A stretch of DNA of 64,000 nucleotides, from assembly GCF_012913485.1 (NCBI RefSeq), contig NZ_CP051774.1, positions 4,340,001-4,404,000 of the forward strand. Direction: 5' to 3'. The translations under genes and the position numbers were made by a program. Within the stretch, counting starts at the first letter, position 1. Each line of letters starts with the position of its first letter. This DNA is from Luteolibacter luteus. GTDB lineage: Bacteria > Verrucomicrobiota > Verrucomicrobiia > Verrucomicrobiales > Akkermansiaceae. Shown here one piece after another: positions 17,957 through 61,855 of this stretch. Below the pieces are notes generated by a model. That model did not search any database. It saw only the letters and a list, made by a program, of their open reading frames with translations, and had not been told where the DNA came from.

Positions 17957-19837
17957 TCATAAGCTCCACTTCCCGCTGCCCTCGTCGAATCTCATCTTCT
18001 CCAGATTCACTCGGACGAATCCCACCGCATCCGCAGGCTCACCCGCGACGAGAGATCTCAAGCGATCCTCCTGCCCCTGCTCTTTCTTCGCGGCCTTCTC
18101 CGCGATGGAGCGGAACGCTGAAAAGTCCCCGGCCTGCGCTGCCCAGAAATCGAAGGGCTGTGGGTCCCGTCTCATTCGGAAGGCATACTTGCTACGCATC
18201 CAGCCCTCGTGGACGAAACGCTTCCAATCCAATCCGGGGTAGTTCCGCAGCAGCGGCTCCAATTTCTCCACGCCGCCGTCCAGCCTCGTCACCAATGCCG
18301 CCACATCCCCTGCCAACGCCGGGTCCTTGTCTTCTAACAGGACTGCCAGCGAAGCCTCGTCCATCGGCAGCCTCTCCTTCGCGAAGCGTTTCAGCAGGGG
18401 CAAGGCGTCAGCCTTCCAGCCCTTGGCCACAAAGATCTCCCCAAGCCGCGGATCGGTTGTCATGCGCTCCAACAGGGCTGGTTTGTCGGAATCGACCGCG
18501 TGCTTGAGGAGGAAAGCCTTAACGAAGTGATCCCACGCGAGGTCCGACCATGGATGGCGTGCCAACACATGAGGCATGCCTTCACGAGGGATTGTTTCCC
18601 CCTTTGCCTTCATGGGACCGCGGTTGGTCCATTGGATATCGTGATCCAAGCCGTTGAAGACCGTAGTGACATCCCCAGCGATCCCTGAGGGCACGGGAGG
18701 CAGGGGCTTGGGAGCTCTCGGCCTCTCGTTATCCGTTGGGGAGACTTTGATCAAGGGAGCCTCTTCGTCTCTTTCAAAGACCAGAAGTTCCAGTGACGGG
18801 AGCAATCGATCCCAGTCGGGGTTCTCCATGGGCGCCTCATATTCTCCGTTGATCCGGTTCCGGGTTACCGGGTAGAGCGCGAGCGGAACGGTGTTGTACA
18901 TGACTGCTCCGTTCTGGCGGAAGGAGTAATCGTCCCCTGGGAAATGGAGAAGAAGCGCAGAAAGTCCCCGTTGTTCCTCTGTGCCCGGCTGTGTGAGAAG
19001 TGCTTCGACGTCGATTGCGAGGTTCTTCCCCTTGGGTTCGACGCGGAGAACTTTGAGCCTGAGCCCGCCACCGCGGATCACGGTTCCCTCCACCGGTGCG
19101 AATCGGGAAACCAGGCGCATACGCGGAACCTCCGGTTGGGATGCATAGTCCTCCGTAGCGATGAAGTTGGCCTTTGGCGGCAAGATTTCACGAATTCCAG
19201 GCAGGAGGTCCCCATAGTTGTAGCGACCGCCGCCACCGCCGTAAGACCCGTAGGGATATCCGCGGAAGAGATGCGCGGTCTTCGGGTGAAACCATGCCCC
19301 GACCAGCAGGAGGCAGGTGACGGCGAGCGCGATTTTCTTCGCAGGTCCTGGTGCCTTGCTTCCTAGCAAGCCTCCCGCCGCCCGTAGGACGGCGGCAATC
19401 AGCATGAGGGAGAGAATGCCCCACAGGAACTTGCCGCTAAGAAGTTTCCACCACTGCCCGGGCTCGGGTGCCAAGGATATCTCAAGCGCCGCCAGCCTAA
19501 CCAGCAGTGACGGGAGCAGCGCCATGGCAAGCACGGCACAGGGAGCGAGCCATGCCTGTGCCCGTGGAAGGGGGCGCGTCCTCCAGCCGCCTTGGGTCAG
19601 GAAGACAGGCTCGGAAAACATGATGCGGAGAATGACCCAGCAGGCTGCCAGGATCTCCAGCATCATGTAGTTCGGTAGCGGCGGCAGGTAGGGATAGCCT
19701 GCTTCCCTTGGTGAAGCTAGGGACGCGATCCCCGTGCCGAAGTAGATGACGATCCCGACGCTGAAGATCCAGAAGCCGATGATCTCCCACCGGAATCGCC
19801 GGAAGGTAAGGCGGAAGGAATGGAGAAAGGTTTTCAT
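17957..19837 (-). CDS. ABC transporter permease-like protein with large soluble domain
   Basis: The 626-aa protein starts with about six membrane helices (residues 20-190) arranged like an ABC-2 permease. It continues with a long soluble region of about 430 residues. The last 200 residues (LLKRFAKERLPMDEASLAVL and onward) resemble HEAT-like helical repeats. It follows the other permease after a 7-base gap and is downstream of the ATPase, so it is likely part of one exporter. Permease with a long soluble tail is unusual for YtrBCD-type systems. Substrate is unknown. Confidence 0.65.
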   Translation of the reverse strand: MKTFLHSFRLTFRRFRWEIIGFWIFSVGIVIYFGTGIASLASPREAGYPYLPPLPNYMMLEILAACWVILRIMFSEPVFLTQGGWRTRPLPRAQAWLAPCAVLAMALLPSLLVRLAALEISLAPEPGQWWKLLSGKFLWGILSLMLIAAVLRAAGGLLGSKAPGPAKKIALAVTCLLLVGAWFHPKTAHLFRGYPYGSYGGGGGRYNYGDLLPGIREILPPKANFIATEDYASQPEVPRMRLVSRFAPVEGTVIRGGGLRLKVLRVEPKGKNLAIDVEALLTQPGTEEQRGLSALLLHFPGDDYSFRQNGAVMYNTVPLALYPVTRNRINGEYEAPMENPDWDRLLPSLELLVFERDEEAPLIKVSPTDNERPRAPKPLPPVPSGIAGDVTTVFNGLDHDIQWTNRGPMKAKGETIPREGMPHVLARHPWSDLAWDHFVKAFLLKHAVDSDKPALLERMTTDPRLGEIFVAKGWKADALPLLKRFAKERLPMDEASLAVLLEDKDPALAGDVAALVTRLDGGVEKLEPLLRNYPGLDWKRFVHEGWMRSKYAFRMRRDPQPFDFWAAQAGDFSAFRSIAEKAAKKEQGQEDRLRSLVAGEPADAVGFVRVNLEKMRFDEGSGKWSL

Positions 19838-19844
19838 GGGAGGG

Positions 19845-22397
19845 TCAGGGGCTTTCAGGGGAAATCGGTATCCAGAGCCGCGCTAGCGGGTCGTAGTGAA
19901 AGTCTGCAGGTTCTCCCGCCGCCAAAGTGCCGATCACTTGTTTCCAATCCTCCGGCTCACCGGGAATGAGGACGACCTTGCGCATCTGCTCCGCAAACCG
20001 CCGCTTGTCCTCATCGCTCAATTGCTTCCACAGGCTGAGCAGATCCGAGAACGCCTCCGGGATGCCATGGGCGGCAGGGGCATAGTAGAAGGAGATCCGG
20101 TAGTCCAAACCGCTGACGGGAAAGCGCCGGTTTGCCAATCCCCGGTAATTCTTCAGCAAGACCTCCGTGAGCCGGGGCTCGATCCCGGGGAGCTGGCGGA
20201 TCTTTTCGTAGATGTCGAACCAAGGCTCTTGCTCCAGAAGTGCCGGATAGGTCCGGGGGTCTTCCAACATCGCCACCATGATCTGGCTGAAGGGGGCTTC
20301 CTTGATGCCTCCGGCTGTCGCCATCTGCAGGATCTGCGGCTTGGCATCCTCGACCCAGCCGCGACGGATCAGCACGTCGGGGATCCAGTTTCCATCGGGC
20401 TTTACGTTTTGTTCGAGCAATGCCGAGATCACTTCTCCCTTCCGTGATTCGGGGCAGGCCAATGCGATGGCAGTGCCTTCAGGGATGGAGGAGGGCTGCG
20501 TGTTGCTTGATCGTATGAGGAGCCGGTCGAGATATCGCGGCACGAAGTCGGCCATGTTCCTGCTCTCCCAGCCGGACTGATCCGACCAAGAGTAGGAGGC
20601 GATCATCCACTTCTCGAACTCCTGGAAGCTCGCCGTGGCTGGATCAGGTCGCTCCTCAAAAGGAGGCGGATCGAAGGAGTCCCGGACTTTCGGATCTCCC
20701 CACTCAAGGGTCAGTTGCAGGGGAAGGGGCTTCGTGTGGATTTCTTCCTCAGTCTTCGCGAGGTTCACCCTCTTGAGCAGCATGAAACGTGCATTGTCGT
20801 AGCCTTCGAGATCCCGCGAGCCGTTGCTGATTTGCCCGGTGATATAAAAGTAACGCATGGCAAGGATGCCGGGAGACAAGGACATCCGGCCTTGGTGAGA
20901 AGTCCACGCGATCCGCGCCATCCCCAGGGAGGGAAAATAAATTACCGGAGTCCAATCCAGCATCGGTATCTCGTCAGGGATCTCCGGGCCGCTGCTCCTC
21001 ATCACCGTGCAGATATCCGCGATGGGCATGCGGTCTTCGACGTCGAGCCGGCGGATATGGATTTCCATGTCCTTCCTCTTGATCTGGACCGGATCTCCGA
21101 GGGGGACGTCGATGAGCTTCTCAAAGCGGAAGATTTTTCCATGGAGCGTCATTCTCAGGCTCGCATCGGCATGGCTTCCGAGCTCGATAGGAGTGAAGGT
21201 CTCGGCCAGCAACGCGCTGTCCGATAGCGAGCTCGGGCCGTCCCATTTGAGCTCCGATCTCTCCGGGGCCACAGCCGCGGTGAGCGCCTTCCAATCAGGA
21301 AGGGAATGATACATCGGTTCCCAAGGATTTGACTTAGGGGTCTCGCTAATCACCTGGTTTCCGGACAGCAGCTCGGACTTCGCTCCCGGCGTCCATGTGG
21401 CAAAGCATCCTTCCGGAAGCCCTGTCACCTCCAGTGACATGAGCATGCTCAATACGGGCGAGCCCACCGAGGTGCTGCTATTGGTGAAAGCTCCGCGCCC
21501 ATAGGAGCTTCTACCGATGCTCCCTTGGAGCCGGTCATTCTTCACCTCGGCCCGCACCTGCCCGCTCCAGTCCGGCAGGCTTGCTTGCTGCATCTGTGGC
21601 AGGGGTGGCCTGGGTCGCGCGAAATGGCATGCGAGCAGGACCAGAAGGATCACGGTCGCAACCTTTTTCGCATGGGCCAGTTGTCTCGGGATGAAGATCA
21701 CCAGCAGGGCGACGACAGCGGCCGCTACCCACAAGGGGACAAGGAGGTGAGGAGTCAGTGGTCCGGTATTGAGTAGGCTGCCGAACCACGATGGCCCTGG
21801 TGAAATCCTGAGGAGAAAGGGAAGAATCTGGAAGGATACGGCAATGGCGAACATGCCTGCTACCCAAGTCCACCAGCTCCCGCAGATGGCTCCGAAGAGC
21901 ATCACCCCCGCGAGCTTCGGCAGATTTGCCATCGCTATGGTCCATCCCGCGGCGAGGGCGTCACTCAGGGAAAAACCGTGGACCAGAGGGATCGCAATGG
22001 AGACGACCGATAGCGGGATAATCAGGAACAACAGCAGCCCGCTACCTTTGGCCGCCGCGCTCTCCAACTTCCGTACCGGCTTCGCATCGGACCACATCCG
22101 GGAATGAAAACCCAAGCTGCCCGCCACCAGCAGGACGGCTCCCGTGGCTATCCAGCCGAAAGTGAGAAAGATCCAGTTCCTCACGACCGGAATCGCGCCA
22201 TGCTTCTCTAGAATTCCGACCAGTTCGCTGTCGCTCCATCCCCGCGACCCTAGGCTCAAAGGCATCTCGAACTTCTCCGGTGAGAAACTCAAGGCAGGCC
22301 ATGCGGCAAAAAGGAGCAATAGCCAGCAGGCGAGGATCAACCAGCGGAGCCGGTGCCAATCCGTCTTCAGGAGATGCAGGACGATGCGCAGGTTCAT
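19845..22397 (-). CDS. ABC transporter permease-like protein with large soluble domain
   Basis: The 850-aa protein has the same plan as its downstream neighbour: about six membrane helices in the first 250 residues, then a beta-rich middle and a helical C-terminal part with repeated Leu-rich segments. It lies directly after the ABC ATPase with a 12-base gap. The two permeases may form a heterodimer with the ATPase. No substrate-binding protein is present. It resembles the YtrBCDEF type of GntR-controlled ABC system in gene order, although those permeases are shorter. Confidence 0.6.
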   Translation of the reverse strand: MNLRIVLHLLKTDWHRLRWLILACWLLLLFAAWPALSFSPEKFEMPLSLGSRGWSDSELVGILEKHGAIPVVRNWIFLTFGWIATGAVLLVAGSLGFHSRMWSDAKPVRKLESAAAKGSGLLLFLIIPLSVVSIAIPLVHGFSLSDALAAGWTIAMANLPKLAGVMLFGAICGSWWTWVAGMFAIAVSFQILPFLLRISPGPSWFGSLLNTGPLTPHLLVPLWVAAAVVALLVIFIPRQLAHAKKVATVILLVLLACHFARPRPPLPQMQQASLPDWSGQVRAEVKNDRLQGSIGRSSYGRGAFTNSSTSVGSPVLSMLMSLEVTGLPEGCFATWTPGAKSELLSGNQVISETPKSNPWEPMYHSLPDWKALTAAVAPERSELKWDGPSSLSDSALLAETFTPIELGSHADASLRMTLHGKIFRFEKLIDVPLGDPVQIKRKDMEIHIRRLDVEDRMPIADICTVMRSSGPEIPDEIPMLDWTPVIYFPSLGMARIAWTSHQGRMSLSPGILAMRYFYITGQISNGSRDLEGYDNARFMLLKRVNLAKTEEEIHTKPLPLQLTLEWGDPKVRDSFDPPPFEERPDPATASFQEFEKWMIASYSWSDQSGWESRNMADFVPRYLDRLLIRSSNTQPSSIPEGTAIALACPESRKGEVISALLEQNVKPDGNWIPDVLIRRGWVEDAKPQILQMATAGGIKEAPFSQIMVAMLEDPRTYPALLEQEPWFDIYEKIRQLPGIEPRLTEVLLKNYRGLANRRFPVSGLDYRISFYYAPAAHGIPEAFSDLLSLWKQLSDEDKRRFAEQMRKVVLIPGEPEDWKQVIGTLAAGEPADFHYDPLARLWIPISPESP

Positions 22398-53499: not shown

Positions 53500-53695
53500 G
53501 GGCTTGGTGGCATCCCGCCGATGACCTGAGGCGGGCGCATGGAATCCGGTGAGAATCCGGAGCAGTCGCGCTGCGGTATCCGACGAACGAATTCCCACAC
53601 GGCCAATCCGGCGCAAGCACGGGTGAAGGCGGGAAGGAGGCGGAGGAGCGGTGAAAGCCGCCCCTTCATAGTCGGGAGCCCGAATACTTCGTCCC
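53500..53695 (+). promoter_or_regulatory. Cobalamin riboswitch
   Basis: The conserved core is plain. GGAATCCGGTGAGAATCCGG (53541-53560) is followed by AGCAGTCGCGCTGCGGTATCC, the B12-box half. The far-end box GTCGGGAGCCCGAATAC lies at 53671-53687. The strand between holds the P3/P5-type stem CGCCGATGACCTGAGGCGG. It lies upstream of a PEP-CTERM gene and a TonB receptor, so it should repress their expression when B12 is plentiful. A candidate downstream switch hairpin with GGTGAC and GTCACC arms is near 53786-53800. Confidence 0.93.
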
Positions 53696-54469: not shown

Positions 54470-56440
54470 GTGAATCCTCGTCTTTTCATCGCGATCTTCC
54501 TGCTCTCTCCCGCCCTTGGCGCGGAGGAGTCGGAGTCGCTTTCAGAGATCATCGTGGAGGCGAATGCGGAAACGGTTATACCGGCGCATTTCGCGGGGAG
54601 CTCCACGGTGATCGATGAGGAGGAAATTGCCGGGGCGGGTGTGCGCTCCGTCGCGGATCTGCTCGCGACGAAAGGAGGTATCCGCCTTTCCAGCACTTCG
54701 GGGAATAGCTCGGGCTCCGCCGTGCACCTGCGTGGCTTTGGCGAGAATGCTTCATCGCGCGTGCTGGTGCTGGTCGATGGCCGCCCGATCAATCGCCCGG
54801 ACATGGGCGGGGTATCTTGGCTGGAGGTGCCGATTTCCCGTTTGGCCCGCGTGGAGATTCTACGCGGGAGCCAGACGGCGCGTTTTGGAAACAATGCGGT
54901 GGGGGGAGTGATCAATTTGATCACGAAGGAGGGTGGAAAGACTGCCTCCGTAATCGAAGCCGCAGGCGGCAGCGATGGTTACATGATGGCCCGCGCCAGC
55001 CATCAGGGGACCTACGATGGTCATGGTATTTCTTTTGATCTGGAGCGGAACTTCACGGACGGCTGGCGCGACAATGCTGCCAGCGAACTTGAGTCCGCCG
55101 CCTTTCGCTGGAACAAGGAGCTCGCAAAGGGGGCGGAAGCAATCTTCGGCGTTTCCTGGGCTGATGAGTTCAATGGTTTCCCCGGACCTTTGACGAAGGA
55201 CCGCTACCTTCTGAATCCCCGCGAGTCGATCTATGCGCTCGCGGGTCAAGCGGATCAATACTTCAGCGATCAGCGCCGCTGGTCCACGGATTCCTCCCTC
55301 GTGCTAGGGAAGGGGAGCGACCTTTCTTTCGAGTTGCCGGTTTCCTTCACCCGTAGGGATCAAGAGTGGAATTTCGGTCCCGGGATGCATTCGGATAATC
55401 TGCTGGAGACCATCCTCGTCTCGCCTCGTGTGATGGCCGGCGGGAAAGCCTGGTCCGCGGAGGCCGGGGCGCAGTATCGTTACGACTCGCTCGAGCTCGA
55501 TCAATTTTCCGAGATCGCCCGGATCAACCAAACAACCGCCGCTCAGCTATCGCGCGATGTGCTTGGTCTCTACGCGAACGGGGAATGGGAGCCATGGAGG
55601 AGCTGGTATCTTCATGCTTCGGCCCGCTGGGAAGTCTCGGAAGTCGATGCTTCGGCCCGGAGCTTTGCCTTTCCGGAGGATCCTGATCTGAACTTCTCCC
55701 GTGGGAATGACGAGACGAATCAAGCCTATCAGATTGGCTTGCGTTGGGAGCCGCGATCCGATCTCAGCTCATGGCTTCGCTATGATCGGCTCTATCGGTT
55801 GCCCTCGATGGATGAGATCGCGTCTTATCAAGGTTATCCTCTGAGCGTGCCTTTCAATGACCAGCTCCAAGCCGAGACGGGCCACAATGTGGAGCTAGGT
55901 GCCGAGTGGAAGCCGGGACCATGGATGTTCCGCATGAATGGCTTCGCGCAGTGGCTCGAAGGCGAGATCATTTTCGACTACCTGCAGAACCTCAATCTGA
56001 ACCTCGCCGACACCCGCCGCGTCGGCTTGGAAACTGCCGCAGGCTATCAATCGGGAATCTGGGATGCACAGTTCCATTACACGACGCTCACCGCGGAGTT
56101 CCAGAACGGGCCTTACGAGGGCAAGCAGGTCTACCTTGTTCCGAAGCACGAACTGACGGCGACGCTTGCCTGCCGCCCGATCGAATGTGTCACGGTTCAG
56201 GCCGAGTATCAGTATGTCAGCGACGCCTTTGAAGGGAATGACTTCCAAAACGTGCAGGAGAAACTGCCATCCTACGGTGTCGCCAACCTCCTGTTGCGCT
56301 ACGAGCCGAAACCCGGCCTTTCGATTTACGCGCGCGTGAACAATCTCTTCGACGAACGCTATGCCACGGTGAAATACAGCGGGGTCTGGTACCCCGCCGC
56401 TGGCAGGCAATTCCAAATCGGCATTCGCCGCGAACTCTGA
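54470..56440 (+). CDS. btuB: TonB-dependent outer-membrane receptor, BtuB-like
   Basis: BtuB-type receptors move B12 across the outer membrane using TonB energy. The 656-aa protein has a signal peptide ending ALGAEE, a likely TonB box near SEIIVEANA, a plug domain with DLLATKGGIRL, HLRGFGENASSRVLVLVDGR, and VEILRGSQTARFGNNAVGGV. It finishes with a 22-strand barrel and the usual aromatic end. Regulation by the cobalamin riboswitch supports the B12 role. Start is GTG at 54470, with AGGACG five bases upstream. Confidence 0.88.
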   Translation: MNPRLFIAIFLLSPALGAEESESLSEIIVEANAETVIPAHFAGSSTVIDEEEIAGAGVRSVADLLATKGGIRLSSTSGNSSGSAVHLRGFGENASSRVLVLVDGRPINRPDMGGVSWLEVPISRLARVEILRGSQTARFGNNAVGGVINLITKEGGKTASVIEAAGGSDGYMMARASHQGTYDGHGISFDLERNFTDGWRDNAASELESAAFRWNKELAKGAEAIFGVSWADEFNGFPGPLTKDRYLLNPRESIYALAGQADQYFSDQRRWSTDSSLVLGKGSDLSFELPVSFTRRDQEWNFGPGMHSDNLLETILVSPRVMAGGKAWSAEAGAQYRYDSLELDQFSEIARINQTTAAQLSRDVLGLYANGEWEPWRSWYLHASARWEVSEVDASARSFAFPEDPDLNFSRGNDETNQAYQIGLRWEPRSDLSSWLRYDRLYRLPSMDEIASYQGYPLSVPFNDQLQAETGHNVELGAEWKPGPWMFRMNGFAQWLEGEIIFDYLQNLNLNLADTRRVGLETAAGYQSGIWDAQFHYTTLTAEFQNGPYEGKQVYLVPKHELTATLACRPIECVTVQAEYQYVSDAFEGNDFQNVQEKLPSYGVANLLLRYEPKPGLSIYARVNNLFDERYATVKYSGVWYPAAGRQFQIGIRREL

Positions 56441-57336
56441 TGATCGACCGGATTTTCATTCTGATCCTGCTCGCCACCTCTGCCGTGGCCGGTCCCTATC
56501 CAGGGGCCGCTGGAGCCTCCGGGAGCGATGCGATCTCGAAGGACGATCCACGTTTCGTCCAGTGGGTCAGCGGCCATCTCGACTACGTTCTCGGCGCAAA
56601 TGTCACGAACAGCTGGCGGACTCCAGCGAAAGCTTACGGCCCGGCGACCGAGGACGTCTTCGACATTGTCTGTCTGGGAGACGGGGGAAAGATCACCCTC
56701 TACTTTCCGCATCCCATTATGGACGGGGAGGGGGCAGACTTTGCCGTCTTCGAGAACTCTTTCAGCAATACCTTCCTCGAACTCGCCTTTGTCGAGGTGT
56801 CGAGTGATGGGGTGAATTTCATCCGTTTCCCTTCGGCTTCGCTCACGTCTTCTGCCACGAACTCGATTGATCCCACCAACTTGCGTGGTCTGGCGGGCAA
56901 GCATCGCGGTGGCTTCGGGACGCCATTCGATCTCGCTGACCTCAGCGCGCCGCCGACGCTGGACAAGAACAACGTCCGCTTTGTGCGTCTCATCGACATC
57001 CTTGGCAATGGCACCTCGAAGGACAGCGACAACCGTCCGATCTTCGATCCCTATCCCACCACCGGATCCGCGGGCTTCGACCTCGATGCGATTGGTGTGA
57101 TCCACCGGAACAACGGAGATTTTCCGATAGTCCTCTCCGGGCTCGATGGAGGCGGCTTTGAGATCGAATGGGGCAGCAATCCGGGAAACCGGTATCGGAT
57201 CGAGAAGTCGCCCGATTGTGTGGAATGGCTTCCCGTTCAGGAACTGCCGGCAGATCCGACTGGTGGTTCGACCTCGTTCTCTGTCGCCAAGCCCGCTGAG
57301 GCAAAGTTCTTCTGGAGAGTGGTGCGTTTGGACTGA
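56440..57336 (+). CDS. Secreted surface protein of the B12 unit
   Basis: The 298-aa product begins with a signal peptide (residues 1-18, ending VAG). The core motif ADFAVFENSFSNTFLELAF, with EVSSDGVNFIRFP and DPTNLRGLAGKHRGGFGTPF, is of a family of extracellular proteins I have seen next to B12 TonB receptors in Bacteroidetes and Verrucomicrobia. A possible role is B12 capture, similar in position to BtuG. Its ATG overlaps the receptor stop by one base, so the genes are coupled. The C-terminal 60 residues resemble a fibronectin-like or similar sandwich. Confidence 0.78.
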   Translation: MIDRIFILILLATSAVAGPYPGAAGASGSDAISKDDPRFVQWVSGHLDYVLGANVTNSWRTPAKAYGPATEDVFDIVCLGDGGKITLYFPHPIMDGEGADFAVFENSFSNTFLELAFVEVSSDGVNFIRFPSASLTSSATNSIDPTNLRGLAGKHRGGFGTPFDLADLSAPPTLDKNNVRFVRLIDILGNGTSKDSDNRPIFDPYPTTGSAGFDLDAIGVIHRNNGDFPIVLSGLDGGGFEIEWGSNPGNRYRIEKSPDCVEWLPVQELPADPTGGSTSFSVAKPAEAKFFWRVVRLD

Positions 57337-57357
57337 GGCGGAACTCCCATCCGGAGG

Positions 57358-57494
57358 AAACGAAAAGCCCGCTGTTTCGTCCGGGGGAAACGAGAGCAGC
57401 GGGCAATCCTCGGGGGATTTTTTCGGGGGGATTTTTTGTCAGTTCGGCCGTGGGGGGATGGCCTCGCTCACGGGAAAAGTAATGACCGATTTTG
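57358..57494 (-). ncRNA. Candidate C-rich small RNA, copy 1
   Basis: Reading the minus strand, a -10-like CAAAAT (57489-57494) sits in a segment conserved with copy 2. Four C-tracts of five or six bases follow. The 3' hairpin has an 8-bp stem (57367-57374 with 57397-57404), an inner TCGT/ACGA stem and a CCCCC loop. It ends in TTTTCGTTT, an intrinsic terminator. It lies after the ClC gene stop and could alternatively be its terminator region. Confidence 0.5.
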
Positions 57495-57550
57495 CCCCGC
57501 TTTGGAATCACGCAATCGCGTGCCGTCGGAATACCCGTAGGCTCACCCGT

Positions 57551-59281
57551 TCAGCTTTCGCGCTTCTCGGCATCGAGGCGGTGCTGCCGGGCTTGGAGAA
57601 CTTCCCGGCGGCTCACCAAGCCGCAGAGCCGGTGAGATCCGTCACGGGAAACCACGGGCAGGCGTCCCACATCGTGCAGGATCATCCGGTCCGCTGCTTC
57701 CGCGAGCGTCTCCTCCGGATGCGCGACTACGGGTCGTTCGACTCCTGCCTCTAGCACCGTCGAATCCGGAGCCACTTGCACGGCAGCCAACACGTCCGCG
57801 CGGCTGATAATTCCTAACAGGATGCCCCCCTCATCCACGATCGGAAAGAGCCGCGCCGTGTTCCACTTCGTCTCGCTGCCCACCATGCGGTCTGCCAAGG
57901 CGGATACGCTCTCGGTGGGGGGCACTGTCAGAGGCTTGCGCAACATCGCCTGTCCCACCGTAAAAGAATGCAGCAGATCGGGCTCATAGTCGGACGGAAC
58001 CTTCACCCCTTTCCGCGAGAGCTTCTCCGTCATCATCGACTCATGCATCGCGAGCCGTGAAACAAGCACCGCAATCCCGCAGCCTAACAACAGCGGCCCG
58101 AAAGCCGACGTCGAATGTGTCGCCTCGAATCCGAAGGCCACCGAGGCCAGCAGCGCTCGCGAAATCCCAGCGAAGACGGCCGACATCCCCACCAGTGCCC
58201 CGATGCCCACAGGCATGCTTTCGAAACCAGGGACCCCGTGAAGCAGGTGGACAACCAGAGCTCCGACCACGCCCCCGATCGTCATCAGCGGGGCAAGCGT
58301 CCCGCCCGCCGTTCCGCTGCCCAAGCAGAGCGACCATGAGAGAAACTTGAAGACCGCCAAGCTGGCCAGAGCCGCGGTCGTCACGTCCCCTTCCAGCAGC
58401 GCTCTTAGATTATGGTAGCCTGCACCCATTGTCCGCGGATCGATCCAACCGATGACACCGACGGCCAAGCCACCAAGGGCCGGCCACCACATCCAGTGGA
58501 TGGGCAGCTTCTCGTAGAGATCCTCGATGGCATGGAGTGCATGGGTGATCAGCACCGCCGCGCCTCCGCAAGCGAGGCCGATGAACACCGAGCCCGCGGA
58601 AAGGGCCGGCCCCGGTGCATCAACCGATACCAAGGGCAGCATGGGGAAAGGCTCATGAAAACACCCTCGCAGGGCCATTGCGCTGCCGGCGGCCATCGCC
58701 ACCGGGATCAGGCTGCGGCTGCGGAATTCGAAAAGGAGCAACTCGATCGCGAGCAGCACACCCGCGAGCGGCGTGCCGAAAACCGCCGTCATGCCTGCCG
58801 CCGCACCAGCCGCCAGCAAGACCTTTCGCTCCGCCGTGCTGCATGGGATCGCTTGGCCGAAGAGTGACCCCACCGCTCCACCCGTGGCGATGATCGGGCC
58901 TTCCGCGCCGAAGGGGCCGCCGGTGCCGATCGAGATAGCGGTTGAGAGCGGCTTGAGAATCGCCACCTTCAGCGAGATGCGGCTGCGCTTGAGGATCACT
59001 CCCTGCATTGCTTCGGGAATGCCGTGACCACGCACATCCTCGCTACCGTAGCGAGCGACCGCCCCGATGATCAAGCCACCCGCGCAGGGAATCAGAATGC
59101 CCCATGCGCCCAAGGTGGAGAAATCTGCCGCTCCCTCGTGAATGGAGATCGTTCCGTGGAAACAGAAATTCGTGATCAACCAGATCAGGTTCAGCAGGCC
59201 GATGCCCGCGACTGCCACGCAGGCACCGACAGGAATGGCTAGCAGCGGCAACCGGACTTTTTCCAAGGTATCCTTCATCAT
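57551..59281 (-). CDS. ClC chloride channel/transporter with CBS domains
   Basis: The 576-aa protein has the ClC pore motifs: GHGIPEA (GSGIP-type), GPFGAEGPII (GREGP-type), and GTAGGTLAPL near the C-terminus of the membrane part. About ten to twelve helices follow the order of ClC proteins. Two CBS domains lie at about 430-560, with GIISRADVL and GLVSRREVL ends; they usually bind adenine nucleotides. The Glu in the GREGP loop, used for proton coupling, is kept. It is translationally coupled to the MarR gene upstream (ATGA overlap), so a MarR-controlled chloride or fluoride response is plausible. Confidence 0.9.
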   Translation of the reverse strand: MMKDTLEKVRLPLLAIPVGACVAVAGIGLLNLIWLITNFCFHGTISIHEGAADFSTLGAWGILIPCAGGLIIGAVARYGSEDVRGHGIPEAMQGVILKRSRISLKVAILKPLSTAISIGTGGPFGAEGPIIATGGAVGSLFGQAIPCSTAERKVLLAAGAAAGMTAVFGTPLAGVLLAIELLLFEFRSRSLIPVAMAAGSAMALRGCFHEPFPMLPLVSVDAPGPALSAGSVFIGLACGGAAVLITHALHAIEDLYEKLPIHWMWWPALGGLAVGVIGWIDPRTMGAGYHNLRALLEGDVTTAALASLAVFKFLSWSLCLGSGTAGGTLAPLMTIGGVVGALVVHLLHGVPGFESMPVGIGALVGMSAVFAGISRALLASVAFGFEATHSTSAFGPLLLGCGIAVLVSRLAMHESMMTEKLSRKGVKVPSDYEPDLLHSFTVGQAMLRKPLTVPPTESVSALADRMVGSETKWNTARLFPIVDEGGILLGIISRADVLAAVQVAPDSTVLEAGVERPVVAHPEETLAEAADRMILHDVGRLPVVSRDGSHRLCGLVSRREVLQARQHRLDAEKRES

Positions 59282-59703
59282 GCTTCGCCAGTTTCCAGGC
59301 TTTGGAACAGTGCCACGATCTCCGGGCTAAGCTGTCGTAGTTCCGCGCGATGCACCTGCGCCAGCAACTCCAGCTTTGCTTCGCCTTCATCCGTCAGCGT
59401 GAGGCAGAGTGCCCGTCCATCGTCCGGCGACTGCCAGCGCAGGATCAGGCCGCCTGCCTCTAGCCTCTGTGCAAGTTCGACAGCGGTATTGTGCTTGATG
59501 CGAAGCCGGTCCGCGAGACGTCGGACGGTCGCATTCGCCCCGGGGCTGGAGCGGATCACCAGCAGGGCTTGATACTGTTGCGGAGTCAGGCCCTCCCGGA
59601 TCGCGGCGCTCTCGCTGAATTCCAAAAAGCAGCGCAGCGCGTAGCGGAAATCCGCGAGGCGCTCGTAATCCGCGTCCGAAAGTTTCCGGGTTCGTGCAGG
59701 CAT
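59278..59703 (-). CDS. MarR-family regulator
   Basis: This 141-aa winged-helix protein has the MarR pattern: helix 1-2 (YERLADFRYALRCFLEFSES), LTPQQYQALLVIRSSPG, the recognition helix VRRLADRLRIKHNTAVELAQRLEAGGLI, and the wing SPDDGRALCLTLTDEG. I set the start at the ATG at 59703, two bases from a perfect palindrome. A longer frame upstream would code across it. It overlaps the ClC gene, so the pair is likely autoregulated. Confidence 0.88.
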   Translation of the reverse strand: MPARTRKLSDADYERLADFRYALRCFLEFSESAAIREGLTPQQYQALLVIRSSPGANATVRRLADRLRIKHNTAVELAQRLEAGGLILRWQSPDDGRALCLTLTDEGEAKLELLAQVHRAELRQLSPEIVALFQSLETGEA

Positions 59704-59705
59704 CC

Positions 59706-59746
59706 GGGGCTTGCAATGTATCGGGTCACGATACATTGCAAGCCCC
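59706..59746. promoter_or_regulatory. Operator palindrome between MarR-ClC and HPP genes
   Basis: An 18-bp perfect arm (59706-59723) is repeated in inverse at 59729-59746 with a 5-base spacer (GGTCA). It is two bases upstream of the MarR start. A -10-like TACATT and a -35-like TTGCAA sit inside it on each strand, so it could silence both directions. Confidence 0.82.
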
Positions 59747-59789
59747 GCGTTGCCCGGACCAAGCAGGGCTGCGCGCTTTCTTGCCTCCC

Positions 59790-60491
59790 GTGAACTCAAG
59801 CGACCCCGATCTCCCGCTGACCATCCAGCGCTTCAAATTCCCTATCGCATGGCTCGGCATCGAGCTCAGCGCAGTCAGCAAGCGCGAGAAGCTTGTCTCT
59901 CTGCTAGGTGGCTTCATCTCGATCCTGTTCCTCATTCTCATCAGTGAGAAATCCCTGCACTTGCCTCATGCCACCGGCCTCATCGCTTCCATGGGCGCAA
60001 GTGCGGTTCTGCTTTTTGCGGTGCCGCACGGGCAGCTTTCCCAGCCTTGGCCGGTCCTGGGTGGCCACTGCCTCGCTGCCTTCATTGGTGTCACCTGTGC
60101 GAAATGGATCGGCTCCTCTGCCTTGGCTGGCGCCTGTGCTGTCGGCCTCACCATCGCGGTGATGCACCAGTTGAAGTGCATTCACCCTCCTGGCGGGGCC
60201 ACTGCGCTCACCGCTGTGCTCGGTGGACCTGCCATCCACGACCTCGGCTACAATTTCGTCTTTTGCCCGGTCTTCGCGAATTGCCTCGTCATGCTCGGCG
60301 CCGCCGTTTTCTTCAATTCCTTCTTCGGCTGGCGGCGTTACCCCGCTGCGTGGAATCGCCCGGTAGCTCCGCCCTCCGCCACCTCGCCGAGTCATGATGA
60401 AGTGATCGCTGCGCTTCGTGAGCTCGATTCCTTCGTCGATATTTCCGAGGACGATCTCATCACCCTCGTCGGGATCTTGCGGAAAAAGTAG
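59790..60491 (+). CDS. HPP-family membrane protein
   Basis: The 233-aa product has four or five membrane helices and the family motif CIHPPGGATAL. Other family blocks are ATGLIASMGASAVLLFAVPHG and SQPWPVLGGH. HPP proteins are linked to nitrite or anion transport in plants and bacteria, though roles vary. Its start is GTG at 59790. It is divergent from the MarR-ClC pair and shares the palindrome, so the three may form one anion-handling unit (inference). Confidence 0.85.
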   Translation: MNSSDPDLPLTIQRFKFPIAWLGIELSAVSKREKLVSLLGGFISILFLILISEKSLHLPHATGLIASMGASAVLLFAVPHGQLSQPWPVLGGHCLAAFIGVTCAKWIGSSALAGACAVGLTIAVMHQLKCIHPPGGATALTAVLGGPAIHDLGYNFVFCPVFANCLVMLGAAVFFNSFFGWRRYPAAWNRPVAPPSATSPSHDEVIAALRELDSFVDISEDDLITLVGILRKK

Positions 60492-60502
60492 CCTGCTCGC
60501 CG

Positions 60503-60654
60503 GACAAAGAAAAACCCGCCGGAATCGTTGGGGGGGGGAACGAGCGCGGCGGGTTTTCCCTTGGGGGTTGTCGGGGGGATGTCTGTGGGGGGATTTGCTG
60601 GATCGACCGTTGGGGGGATGGTCTCGCCTGCGGAACTAGTGATGTCCGATTTTA
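60503..60654 (-). ncRNA. Candidate C-rich small RNA, copy 2
   Basis: On the minus strand TAAAAT (60649-60654) begins the element, with a TSS near 60642. Five C-tracts (five to nine bases) follow. The last hairpin has an 11-bp stem (60511-60521 with 60547-60557), an inner 5-bp TCGTT/AACGA stem and a nine-C loop. It ends in TTTTTCTTTG. It matches copy 1 in layout and in part of its sequence; stem positions differ in a compensating way. Confidence 0.55.
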
Positions 60655-60715
60655 CCCCCTTTTGGAATCACGTGATCGCGTGCGGCGGAGATTACGCAGG
60701 GGGCACGTAAGCCCT

Positions 60716-61855
60716 TCACTTCGCGGCATTTTGAAAGGCTTCCCGCACTACCGAGGCATCGGAGTTCGCGAAATTCGCCCGCTGCACCAGCATCACGTAG
60801 GCTTTCCCCTTCACCGGATCGATCCATGCCTGGGTTCCGTAGGCACCGCCATGGCCGAAGGTCCCGGGCGAGACTGCAGCCGTCACGCCCTGCGGCTCCT
60901 TGATTACGCACCAGCCCAGGCCCCAGCCATTGCCGGGCGTGAAGCCGGTCTGTAGGTTTCCGCTCTGGATCGTTGTCATCTGCTTCACGGATTCCTCCTT
61001 CAGGTAGCGCTGCCCGCCCAGTTCGCCCCCGCGCAGGATCATCCGGGCGAATTTGCCGTAGTCCTCGGCCGTGGAGAAAAGTCCGCCGTTGGCCAAGGGG
61101 TAGCGATCCTTGCTCGTCACCGGCTTGTCTCCCAAGAACATCAACCCGGCTTTCTCCAGTTCGCCAGCATCCGTGCGGCGGTAGCTGGTCGCGATCCGTG
61201 CTGCCTGTGCTTCGGTTGGGTAAAAGGTGGTGTCTTTCATTCCGAGCGGCGTGAAGAGGCGCTCCTGCAGGAAGCCGGGGAAATCCTTGCCGGATACCAC
61301 TTCCACCACGCGGGCCGCCGTATTGATCCCCGTCTGGCAATACTCCCACTTGCTGCCCGGTGCGAATTTCACCGGCTTTGCCACGATCTTTGGCATCAGA
61401 TCCCTCAGTGTGACCACGCCTGCCAGTTCCGGCCCGCGCACTTCATCCAGGCCCGTGCTGTGTGTCAGGCATTGCTTGATCGTGATCGTCACCGGCTTGC
61501 CTTCTGCGTCCTTCAGATCCTTGAATTCCGGGAGATATTTCGAAACGGGATCTTCCACCGACAGCTTGCCGGCTTCCTGCATCATCATCACCGCAGTGCC
61601 GGTCACGGGCTTGGTCATCGAGGCGATCCAAAAGATCGAGTCCTTCGCCATCGGGGTTTTCTTCTCCAGATCCGAGTAGCCGTTCGTTGCCAGGTGCAGG
61701 GGCTTTTCCTTGTCTTCGATCAGGGTCACTGAGCCCGCGATTTCCTTGTCGGCGATCACCTTGTCCATGGCCGCGCTCACGGCGGGGAGGATGGGCGCAT
61801 CTTGGGCGAAAGTGGCAAGGGTCGTGAGGCCGATGGCGAGGACTACGGGTTTCAT
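60716..61855 (-). CDS. Serine hydrolase, beta-lactamase/esterase class C fold
   Basis: The 379-aa protein has a signal peptide (MKPVVLAIGLTTLATFAQ) and the class C beta-lactamase-like fold. The nucleophile motif is SMTK near residue 76 (SxxK). The tyrosine motif is EYCQTGI near residue 167, where YCQ replaces the more usual YxN. The third motif GHGGAYG matches KTG/HxG. It is more likely an esterase or D-aminopeptidase-like hydrolase than an antibiotic resistance enzyme. I set the start at 61855 because the signal peptide begins there. Confidence 0.85.
   Translation of the reverse strand: MKPVVLAIGLTTLATFAQDAPILPAVSAAMDKVIADKEIAGSVTLIEDKEKPLHLATNGYSDLEKKTPMAKDSIFWIASMTKPVTGTAVMMMQEAGKLSVEDPVSKYLPEFKDLKDAEGKPVTITIKQCLTHSTGLDEVRGPELAGVVTLRDLMPKIVAKPVKFAPGSKWEYCQTGINTAARVVEVVSGKDFPGFLQERLFTPLGMKDTTFYPTEAQAARIATSYRRTDAGELEKAGLMFLGDKPVTSKDRYPLANGGLFSTAEDYGKFARMILRGGELGGQRYLKEESVKQMTTIQSGNLQTGFTPGNGWGLGWCVIKEPQGVTAAVSPGTFGHGGAYGTQAWIDPVKGKAYVMLVQRANFANSDASVVREAFQNAAK

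Follow-up and report, generated by a model that had tools for sequence, protein, structure and literature searches.

A multicopy family of predicted small RNA genes with C-tract loops in Luteolibacter luteus and related Verrucomicrobiota

CsrB and RsmZ sponge RNAs carry many copies of a GGA motif in hairpin loops and are encoded by redundant genes. Other bacterial small RNAs present C-rich loops. The 6C RNA of Actinomycetes (Rfam RF01066) is described as having two stem-loops, typically with six C each (PMC4046766). B11, the mycobacterial 6C RNA, represses the eccB4 leader, which contains six G, via either C-loop, as proven by compensatory mutations, and the part of that article cited here states that neither Hfq nor ProQ has been identified as a chaperone in its host group (PMC10470900). 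The Xanthomonas RNA sX13 is strongly structured with three C-rich loops and acts on G-rich motifs independently of Hfq; a G-rich motif stands at the ribosome site in 5% of Xanthomonas genes, and the genes repressed by sX13 are enriched in 4G motifs (PMC3771888). In Listeria, LhrC1-5 comprise five copies under the control of LisRK; every copy has three UCCC-containing motifs, placed in both loops and in the linker, that are redundant (PMC4132741). In the portions of the open-access literature covered here, with most subscription papers outside that scope, no regulatory small RNA family is described for the lineage of Luteolibacter luteus. We have found two C-rich elements, copies A and B, in a 64,000-nucleotide (64-kb) window of the L. 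luteus chromosome (contig NZ_CP051774.1, positions 4,340,001 to 4,404,000), which belong to a newly seen multicopy family of predicted small RNA genes.

Read directly from the sequence, the two elements lie on the minus strand at 57494-57363 (copy A) and 60654-60510 (copy B) with an identical layout, consisting of a -10-like box, CGG(A/T)CAT, a 5' hairpin whose loop carries C6, a C-tract linker and a terminator hairpin with a C-tract loop. The segment GTGATTCC stands before the -10-like boxes of both copies. The terminal hairpins have outer stems GCCCGCTG/CAGCGGGC in copy A and ACCCGCCG/CGGCGGGT in copy B, C-tracts in their loops and a T-run. Lengths of the C-tracts are 6, 6, 5 and 5 in copy A and 6, 6, 6, 5 and 9 in copy B. 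When aligned, the copies show 79% mean column identity, and their folding z-scores are -2.98 (A) and -3.38 (B) against 200 dinucleotide shuffles each. A preliminary description of the window had proposed a pair of paralogous small RNAs with this layout (a conserved segment, a CAAAAT or TAAAAT box, four to five C-tracts, a terminal C-loop hairpin and a T-run) and had suggested a covariance model and a genome search. The layout is present in both copies, the model and search were carried out and returned many copies with compensatory stems, and these results strongly support paralogous structured small RNA genes.

The window's own genome contains at least nine members, namely five close copies, one divergent copy and a tandem trio of a second class. 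Searching this genome (6.41 Mb, one contig) with copy B located three more copies, at 0.78, 2.90 and 5.24 Mb; in addition, the terminator part found a match at 1.31 Mb and the promoter alone found one at 1.438 Mb. The last of these is part of the tandem trio, in which the promoter box is the same and the fold is different. By blastn, 12 of 38 genomes matched, all from one genus (12 of 18 there, including the window's own; 0 of 20 outside). A covariance model, R1, was built from 20 copies and has one flaw, an outer pair misplaced at columns 124-173 instead of 124-169. Because copies A and B are among the 20 model sequences, their R1 scores follow by construction, and the independent evidence is the further copies elsewhere. 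In the 18 genus genomes R1 gave 55 matches at E up to 0.01 (54 sense and one antisense, G006:C244), distributed over 13 of the 18. Among sampled genomes of the order 7 of 239 matched (E up to 1e-3), and among those of the class 7 of 384 (E up to 1e-4), under stricter filters and limits by which weak genus members such as G002 and G014 were lost. The matches in both scans always came from the genus and from one genome (G218) of a second genus in the same taxonomic family. Within the reach of the model and the sample, the predicted RNA family is thus restricted to two genera of a single Verrucomicrobiota family.

A scan of the genome collection with a 16-base pattern was rejected as too loose, since it returned at least 120 stretches, most of them in unrelated phyla. 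When R1 was run on the 120 listed stretches and 11 viral stretches (E < 1e-10), members were found only in L098, L127, L135, L156, L164, L176, L196 and L202, and none of the 11 viral stretches held one. The first five of these appear to be genus genomes already counted, and the last three repeat their bit scores. One assembly carrying the family (contigs CAMCYK010000060.1 and CAMCYK010000237.1; L098 and L156) is titled Akkermansia muciniphila; the label looks wrong, and the assembly appears to correspond to genome G006 of a Haloferula-like genus. In a separate case, locus L238 (G011:C3:64800-66800) contains six tandem copies within about 1.5 kb. The second and third copies in transcription order recur nearly identically as the fifth and sixth, so this array probably reflects recent segmental duplication or gene conversion.

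Covariation indicates that the predicted fold is under selection. The preliminary description had read the outer stems as varying in a compensating way. In a MAFFT alignment that was not fitted to structure, two-sided compensatory changes occurred in 7 of 23 pairs vs 1.1 +/- 0.9 in shuffled alignments, with 0 of 500 shuffles reaching 7. In a 60-row model-fitted alignment, which leans towards structure and contains three antisense rows as well as the misplaced pair (21.7% paired, among the 23), 90.7% of cells were paired, the covariation score was 0.333 vs 0.110 +/- 0.007 shuffled and 0.023-0.056 slid, and all 23 pairs were two-sided vs 10.9 +/- 2.0 shuffled. Wobble pairs were commoner on the RNA strand (61 G-U vs 37 A-C cells, misplaced pair excluded). 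In the middle hairpin the C-loop is constant and the stem is swapped wholesale (GGUC/GACC, CCGUC/GACGG, CCGCUC/GAGCGG, UCUUC/GAAGA), and in the most divergent members (L224, L225, L243, L075) the 5' hairpin and terminator stems are unlike those of the window.

The conserved feature of the family is, on this sequence evidence, a displayed U-(C)6-purine motif. Counts were made over 55 RNAs, obtained from 60 matches by removing three antisense (L242, L037, L044), one truncated (L053) and one other-class match (L060); predicted lengths across the family are about 100-200 nt. These RNAs contain 268 tracts of at least four C, with two to eight per RNA and a mode of five (25 of 55), and 158 of the 268 are exactly C6. 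A U precedes 224 tracts and a purine follows 261. In predicted folds, 159 of the 268 tracts fall in hairpin loops and 226 are unpaired; permuting all bases except the tracts gives 70.6 +/- 4.1 and 182 +/- 4.3, respectively. All 55 RNAs have two or more predicted hairpin loops containing at least C4, many have more than two, and in 44 at least two loops contain C5 or longer. The terminator loop usually holds the last C-tract of the RNA. In two copies of the six-gene G011 array there are eight tracts each, seven C4 and one C6, which are set in successive mini-hairpins.

The members also share putative promoters. Of the 55 members, 39 show a box NAAA(A/T)NCGG, which lies 21-22 nt ahead of the model start in 37 of these 39. 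In 29 of the 39, the box is preceded by an RCGT(A/G/T)(A/C)T element whose end is 11-12 nt away from it, and 19 of the 39 contain a dyad. Tandem copies each carry their own repeat of the promoter. The box is not specific to the family, as 28 genome sites lie within two mismatches of it (reversed control 5), 8 at members and 20 elsewhere. The dyad pattern ACGYNATNRCGTRAT has 11 genome sites vs 0 for the reversed pattern, and 6 of the 11 are at these RNAs; of two others, the first falls within a coding ORF (L341) and the second precedes an autotransporter gene. The simplest reading of the shared promoters may be a common regulator that binds the dyad ACGYNATNRCGT. Since the dyad ACGTGATCACGTAAT also stands upstream of an autotransporter-domain gene (L340, about 1500-2870), the presumed regulator may control a surface protein too. 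In six loci of genomes G006 and G008 (L041, L050, L056, L057, L247, L248) the RCGTAAT-like element is kept and a conserved GGCAGATTGATCC replaces the AAAATCGGACAT box; these copies perhaps have a different -10 region or sigma factor.

We propose that these are free-standing small RNA genes transcribed together under one dyad-binding regulator. In each RNA, short hairpins and linkers would serve as a scaffold on which two to eight C-tracts are displayed, with an intrinsic terminator at the end of the RNA. Each C-loop would serve as a redundant seed, pairing independently of Hfq with G-runs in mRNAs, and this pairing would block translation or alter mRNA stability, with the dose set by the number of loops and the number of genes. 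Redundant pairing of C-loops with G-runs of other RNAs is the mechanism that we hold most likely, at roughly an even chance, because of the precedents (B11, sX13 and LhrC) and because neither the Hfq nor the CsrA model of Pfam has a match in the 18 genus genomes, 16 of which are at least 90% complete. In a control of 14 genomes, the Hfq model matched five and the CsrA model three.

Several results weigh against pairing or weaken the evidence behind it. Leader statistics were calculated for the region -40..-1 of 660 gene starts in an 864-kb sample (the window with L251-L270 and L291-L310). Start codons in the leader, duplex and neighbour analyses are approximate, because genes were taken from a simple ORF caller. 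Neither G5 runs (20 vs 26.8 +/- 5.0 shuffled) nor G6 runs (1 vs 7.5 +/- 3.0 shuffled) were enriched in these leaders. Genome G002, with a single weak family match, has a similar G5 shortfall before its starts (9 vs 18.4 +/- 3.9) and, because it shows this equally, the shortfall speaks little for avoidance. When duplexes between C-tract pieces and 679 gene starts were predicted, fewer sense (280) than antisense duplexes (405) reached -20 kcal/mol, with 235 in the reversed control; this prediction is uninformative. The exact length of six and the fixed flanks would equally suit a protein-binding motif. In the MAFFT alignment further pair types were not in excess (12 vs 10.9 +/- 0.8 shuffled, a value reached by 116 of 500 shuffles), and the strand preference of wobble pairs is modest. 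The counts over the 55 RNAs are not independent, because many of these are related or tandem copies.

A genome-wide rule of anti-Shine-Dalgarno targeting was rejected as unsupported, with no enrichment of G-runs at starts. The Shine-Dalgarno signal itself is weak in this sample (GGAGG in 39 of 660 leaders vs 25.6 +/- 4.5 shuffled), and C makes up 41% of positions -5 to -1 before the start codons of this genome. The preliminary suggestion that C-tract loops bind G-rich ribosome sites is therefore supported only in part: it agrees with the tested precedents (B11/6C, sX13 and LhrC), but in this sample the leaders have no excess of G-runs, Shine-Dalgarno motifs are little used and the predicted duplexes have no excess of sense over antisense. 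From whole-genome motif counts in 16 chosen genomes, the mean ratio of GGGGGGA..ATG to TCCCCCC..ATG was 1.11 in nine RNA-rich genomes (three or more R1 matches) vs 1.35 in seven RNA-poor ones (P 0.012), and the same contrast was found within the genus (nine vs five genomes, P 0.019), with phylogeny not corrected in either comparison. The lower ratio fits avoidance of off-target pairing, weakly and post hoc.

The RNAs may instead be arrays of binding sites that titrate a C-tract-binding protein or a G-rich RNA, the former following the logic of CsrB/RsmZ but with a new motif; gene and loop number would set the capacity. We regard this as possible, though well behind pairing in likelihood. It would account for a short motif that is repeated two to eight times per RNA and apparently gained or lost as whole mini-hairpins, for the modal length of exactly six with conserved U and purine flanks, and for the lack of G-run enrichment at start codons; the section of the LhrC paper cited here also notes that repeated loop motifs recall protein-binding RNAs (PMC4132741). 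However, C6 runs are not enriched in the leaders of the 660 genes (5 vs 25.9 +/- 4.4 shuffled), so there is no sign of a C-tract regulon to relieve. Moreover, no candidate protein was identified, the CsrA model matching 0 of 18 genomes, and the three C-loop RNAs compared (B11, sX13 and LhrC) act, in the sections of the papers cited here, through base-pairing. Somewhat more doubtful still is the specific form in which a lineage with no Hfq or CsrA match evolved its own Csr-like sponge, with up to nine or more RNA genes per genome and tens of near-identical UC6-purine loops titrating a C-tract-binding protein or G-rich RNA. If true, the sponge reading would mean a Csr-like system in which both the motif and the partner are new.

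That each element is a cis-acting 3' element, either a terminator or a 3' UTR-derived RNA of the upstream gene, seems improbable. Both window copies do follow closely on the stop codon of a gene on their own strand, but the promoter box occurs at a fixed spacing in most members and the promoter is repeated in each tandem copy. In addition, copies L003 and L005 of the same genome are flanked on both sides by ORFs of the opposite strand, and the ORF that ends 133 nt before the start of L002 has no relation to those of the window. An element acting at the DNA level, whether as a mobile repeat or through its C-tracts and G-tracts, is less probable again. The many dispersed copies and the G-runs on the opposite strand would suit it; against it stand the directional order of promoter, hairpins and terminator, the absence of any inverted repeat of at least 10 nt around either copy except copy B's own terminator, the lack of a blastn match for copy B in plasmid or phage records, and the wobble pairs favouring the RNA strand (61 vs 37). 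Short coding genes have a negligible likelihood, as the frames that are often open end to end (45, 33 and 9 of 55 in the three frames) are common because C-tracts contain no stops, the tracts are spaced evenly with respect to the three frames (75, 70, 68) and therefore do not form a coding repeat, total lengths are spread over all remainders modulo 3 (19, 14 and 22), and 23 of the 55 have no ATG between 12 nt before the model start and the end.

Within the window, R1 matched with E < 1e-10 at copies A and B only; three other matches up to E 1 (8e-4, 0.18 and 0.34) are two antisense overlaps and a weak site at 19780-19908. As the preliminary description had stated, each copy lies just past the stop of a minus-strand gene, and Pfam matches identify these genes as a ClC channel (Voltage_CLC and CBS) and a serine hydrolase (Beta-lactamase). 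On the opposite side are convergent plus-strand genes; one encodes an HPP membrane protein, and the other matched no Pfam model. No consensus promoter was found in 57000-61000 by a simple sigma-70 scan, and a simple terminator scan with loops of 3-8 listed neither copy's terminator. At the gathering cut-off, Rfam models matched only two tRNAs and a cobalamin riboswitch in the whole window. The riboswitch (RF00174, 57.2 bits) is located at 53541-53687, upstream of an ORF for a small, apparently secreted protein, beyond which an ORF at 54470-56440 looks by eye like a TonB-dependent receptor. The parts of the two copies are listed in Table 1.

Table 1. Predicted features of copies A and B, in window coordinates.
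Feature	Position	Strand	Remarks
Predicted small RNA gene, copy A	57362..57483	-	~120 nt; start inferred from promoter box
R1 covariance match, copy A	57362-57472	-	83.2 bits; copy A itself in model
-10-like box CAAAAT, copy A, then CGGTCAT	57489..57494	-	Sequence
Dyad ACGCGATTGCGT near -35 position, copy A	57510..57521	-	Candidate regulator site
5' hairpin, copy A	57438..57472	-	Loop holds C6 tract 57452-57457
Linker, copy A	57412..57430	-	C-tracts 57425-57430 (C6), 57412-57416 (C5)
Terminator hairpin, copy A	57363..57404	-	Loop holds C5 tract 57383-57387; then TTTT
Predicted small RNA gene, copy B	60509..60643	-	~135 nt; start inferred
R1 covariance match, copy B	60509-60632	-	96.5 bits; copy B itself in model
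-10-like box TAAAAT, copy B, then CGGACAT	60649..60654	-	Sequence
Dyad ACGCGATCACGT near -35 position, copy B	60670..60681	-	Sequence
5' hairpin, copy B	60597..60632	-	Loop holds C6 tract 60612-60617
Linker, copy B	60563..60592	-	C-tracts 60587-60592 (C6), 60573-60578 (C6), 60563-60567 (C5)
Terminator hairpin, copy B	60510..60557	-	Loop holds C9 tract 60530-60538; then T-run

By the Rfam model, the predicted family is not 6C RNA. None of the 18 genus genomes had a match above the gathering cut-off of RF01066 (47 bits), and among seven matches up to E 1 the sole family member scored 25.7 bits (G004:C38), the best match elsewhere reaching 40.6 bits. A permissive Rfam search of seven family loci (E up to 5) gave 13 matches, including ar7 and FsrA, none of them near its cut-off and none to LhrC. 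Apart from the family, the same genome holds two more candidate C-tract RNAs (L342, G000:C1:5851500-5852050; L343, G000:C1:2274100-2274700), in which a TCCCCCC stretch is followed by a GGACGGCCCCAGCGG...GGGGCCGTCC hairpin; their scores with the 6C model are 40.6 and 31.9 bits.

The family is large and fast-evolving with the C6 loop as its main constant, which suggests that the solution represented by 6C, LhrC and sX13 arose again in another phylum and multiplied there. It stands in a lineage where no Hfq or CsrA match was obtained in 18 genus genomes, and it provides a setting in which to ask how C-loop RNAs choose their targets where ribosome sites are not G-rich.

Compared with CsrB and RsmZ, the family likewise has many copies of a short motif in hairpin loops and redundant genes, but its motif is UC6-purine and CsrA is not matched. 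As in 6C RNA, every one of the 55 RNAs has at least two predicted C-loop hairpins; in contrast to it, the family has two to eight C-tracts, many paralogues and other stems, and belongs to Verrucomicrobiota instead of Actinomycetales. It differs from sX13 in having C6-type loops rather than CCCC, where sX13 has three stem-loops, and in the lack of G-run enrichment at the 660 starts, although with sX13, too, the enrichment concerns the repressed genes. With LhrC it shares several genes per genome and redundant C-rich motifs in loops and linker, whereas it shows C6 rather than UCCC, up to eight tracts and no Hfq match in the 18 genomes. LhrC is controlled by LisRK; the members of the present family have a common promoter box with an upstream element or dyad, at which a single regulator may act. 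The family most likely works like 6C/B11, sX13 and LhrC.

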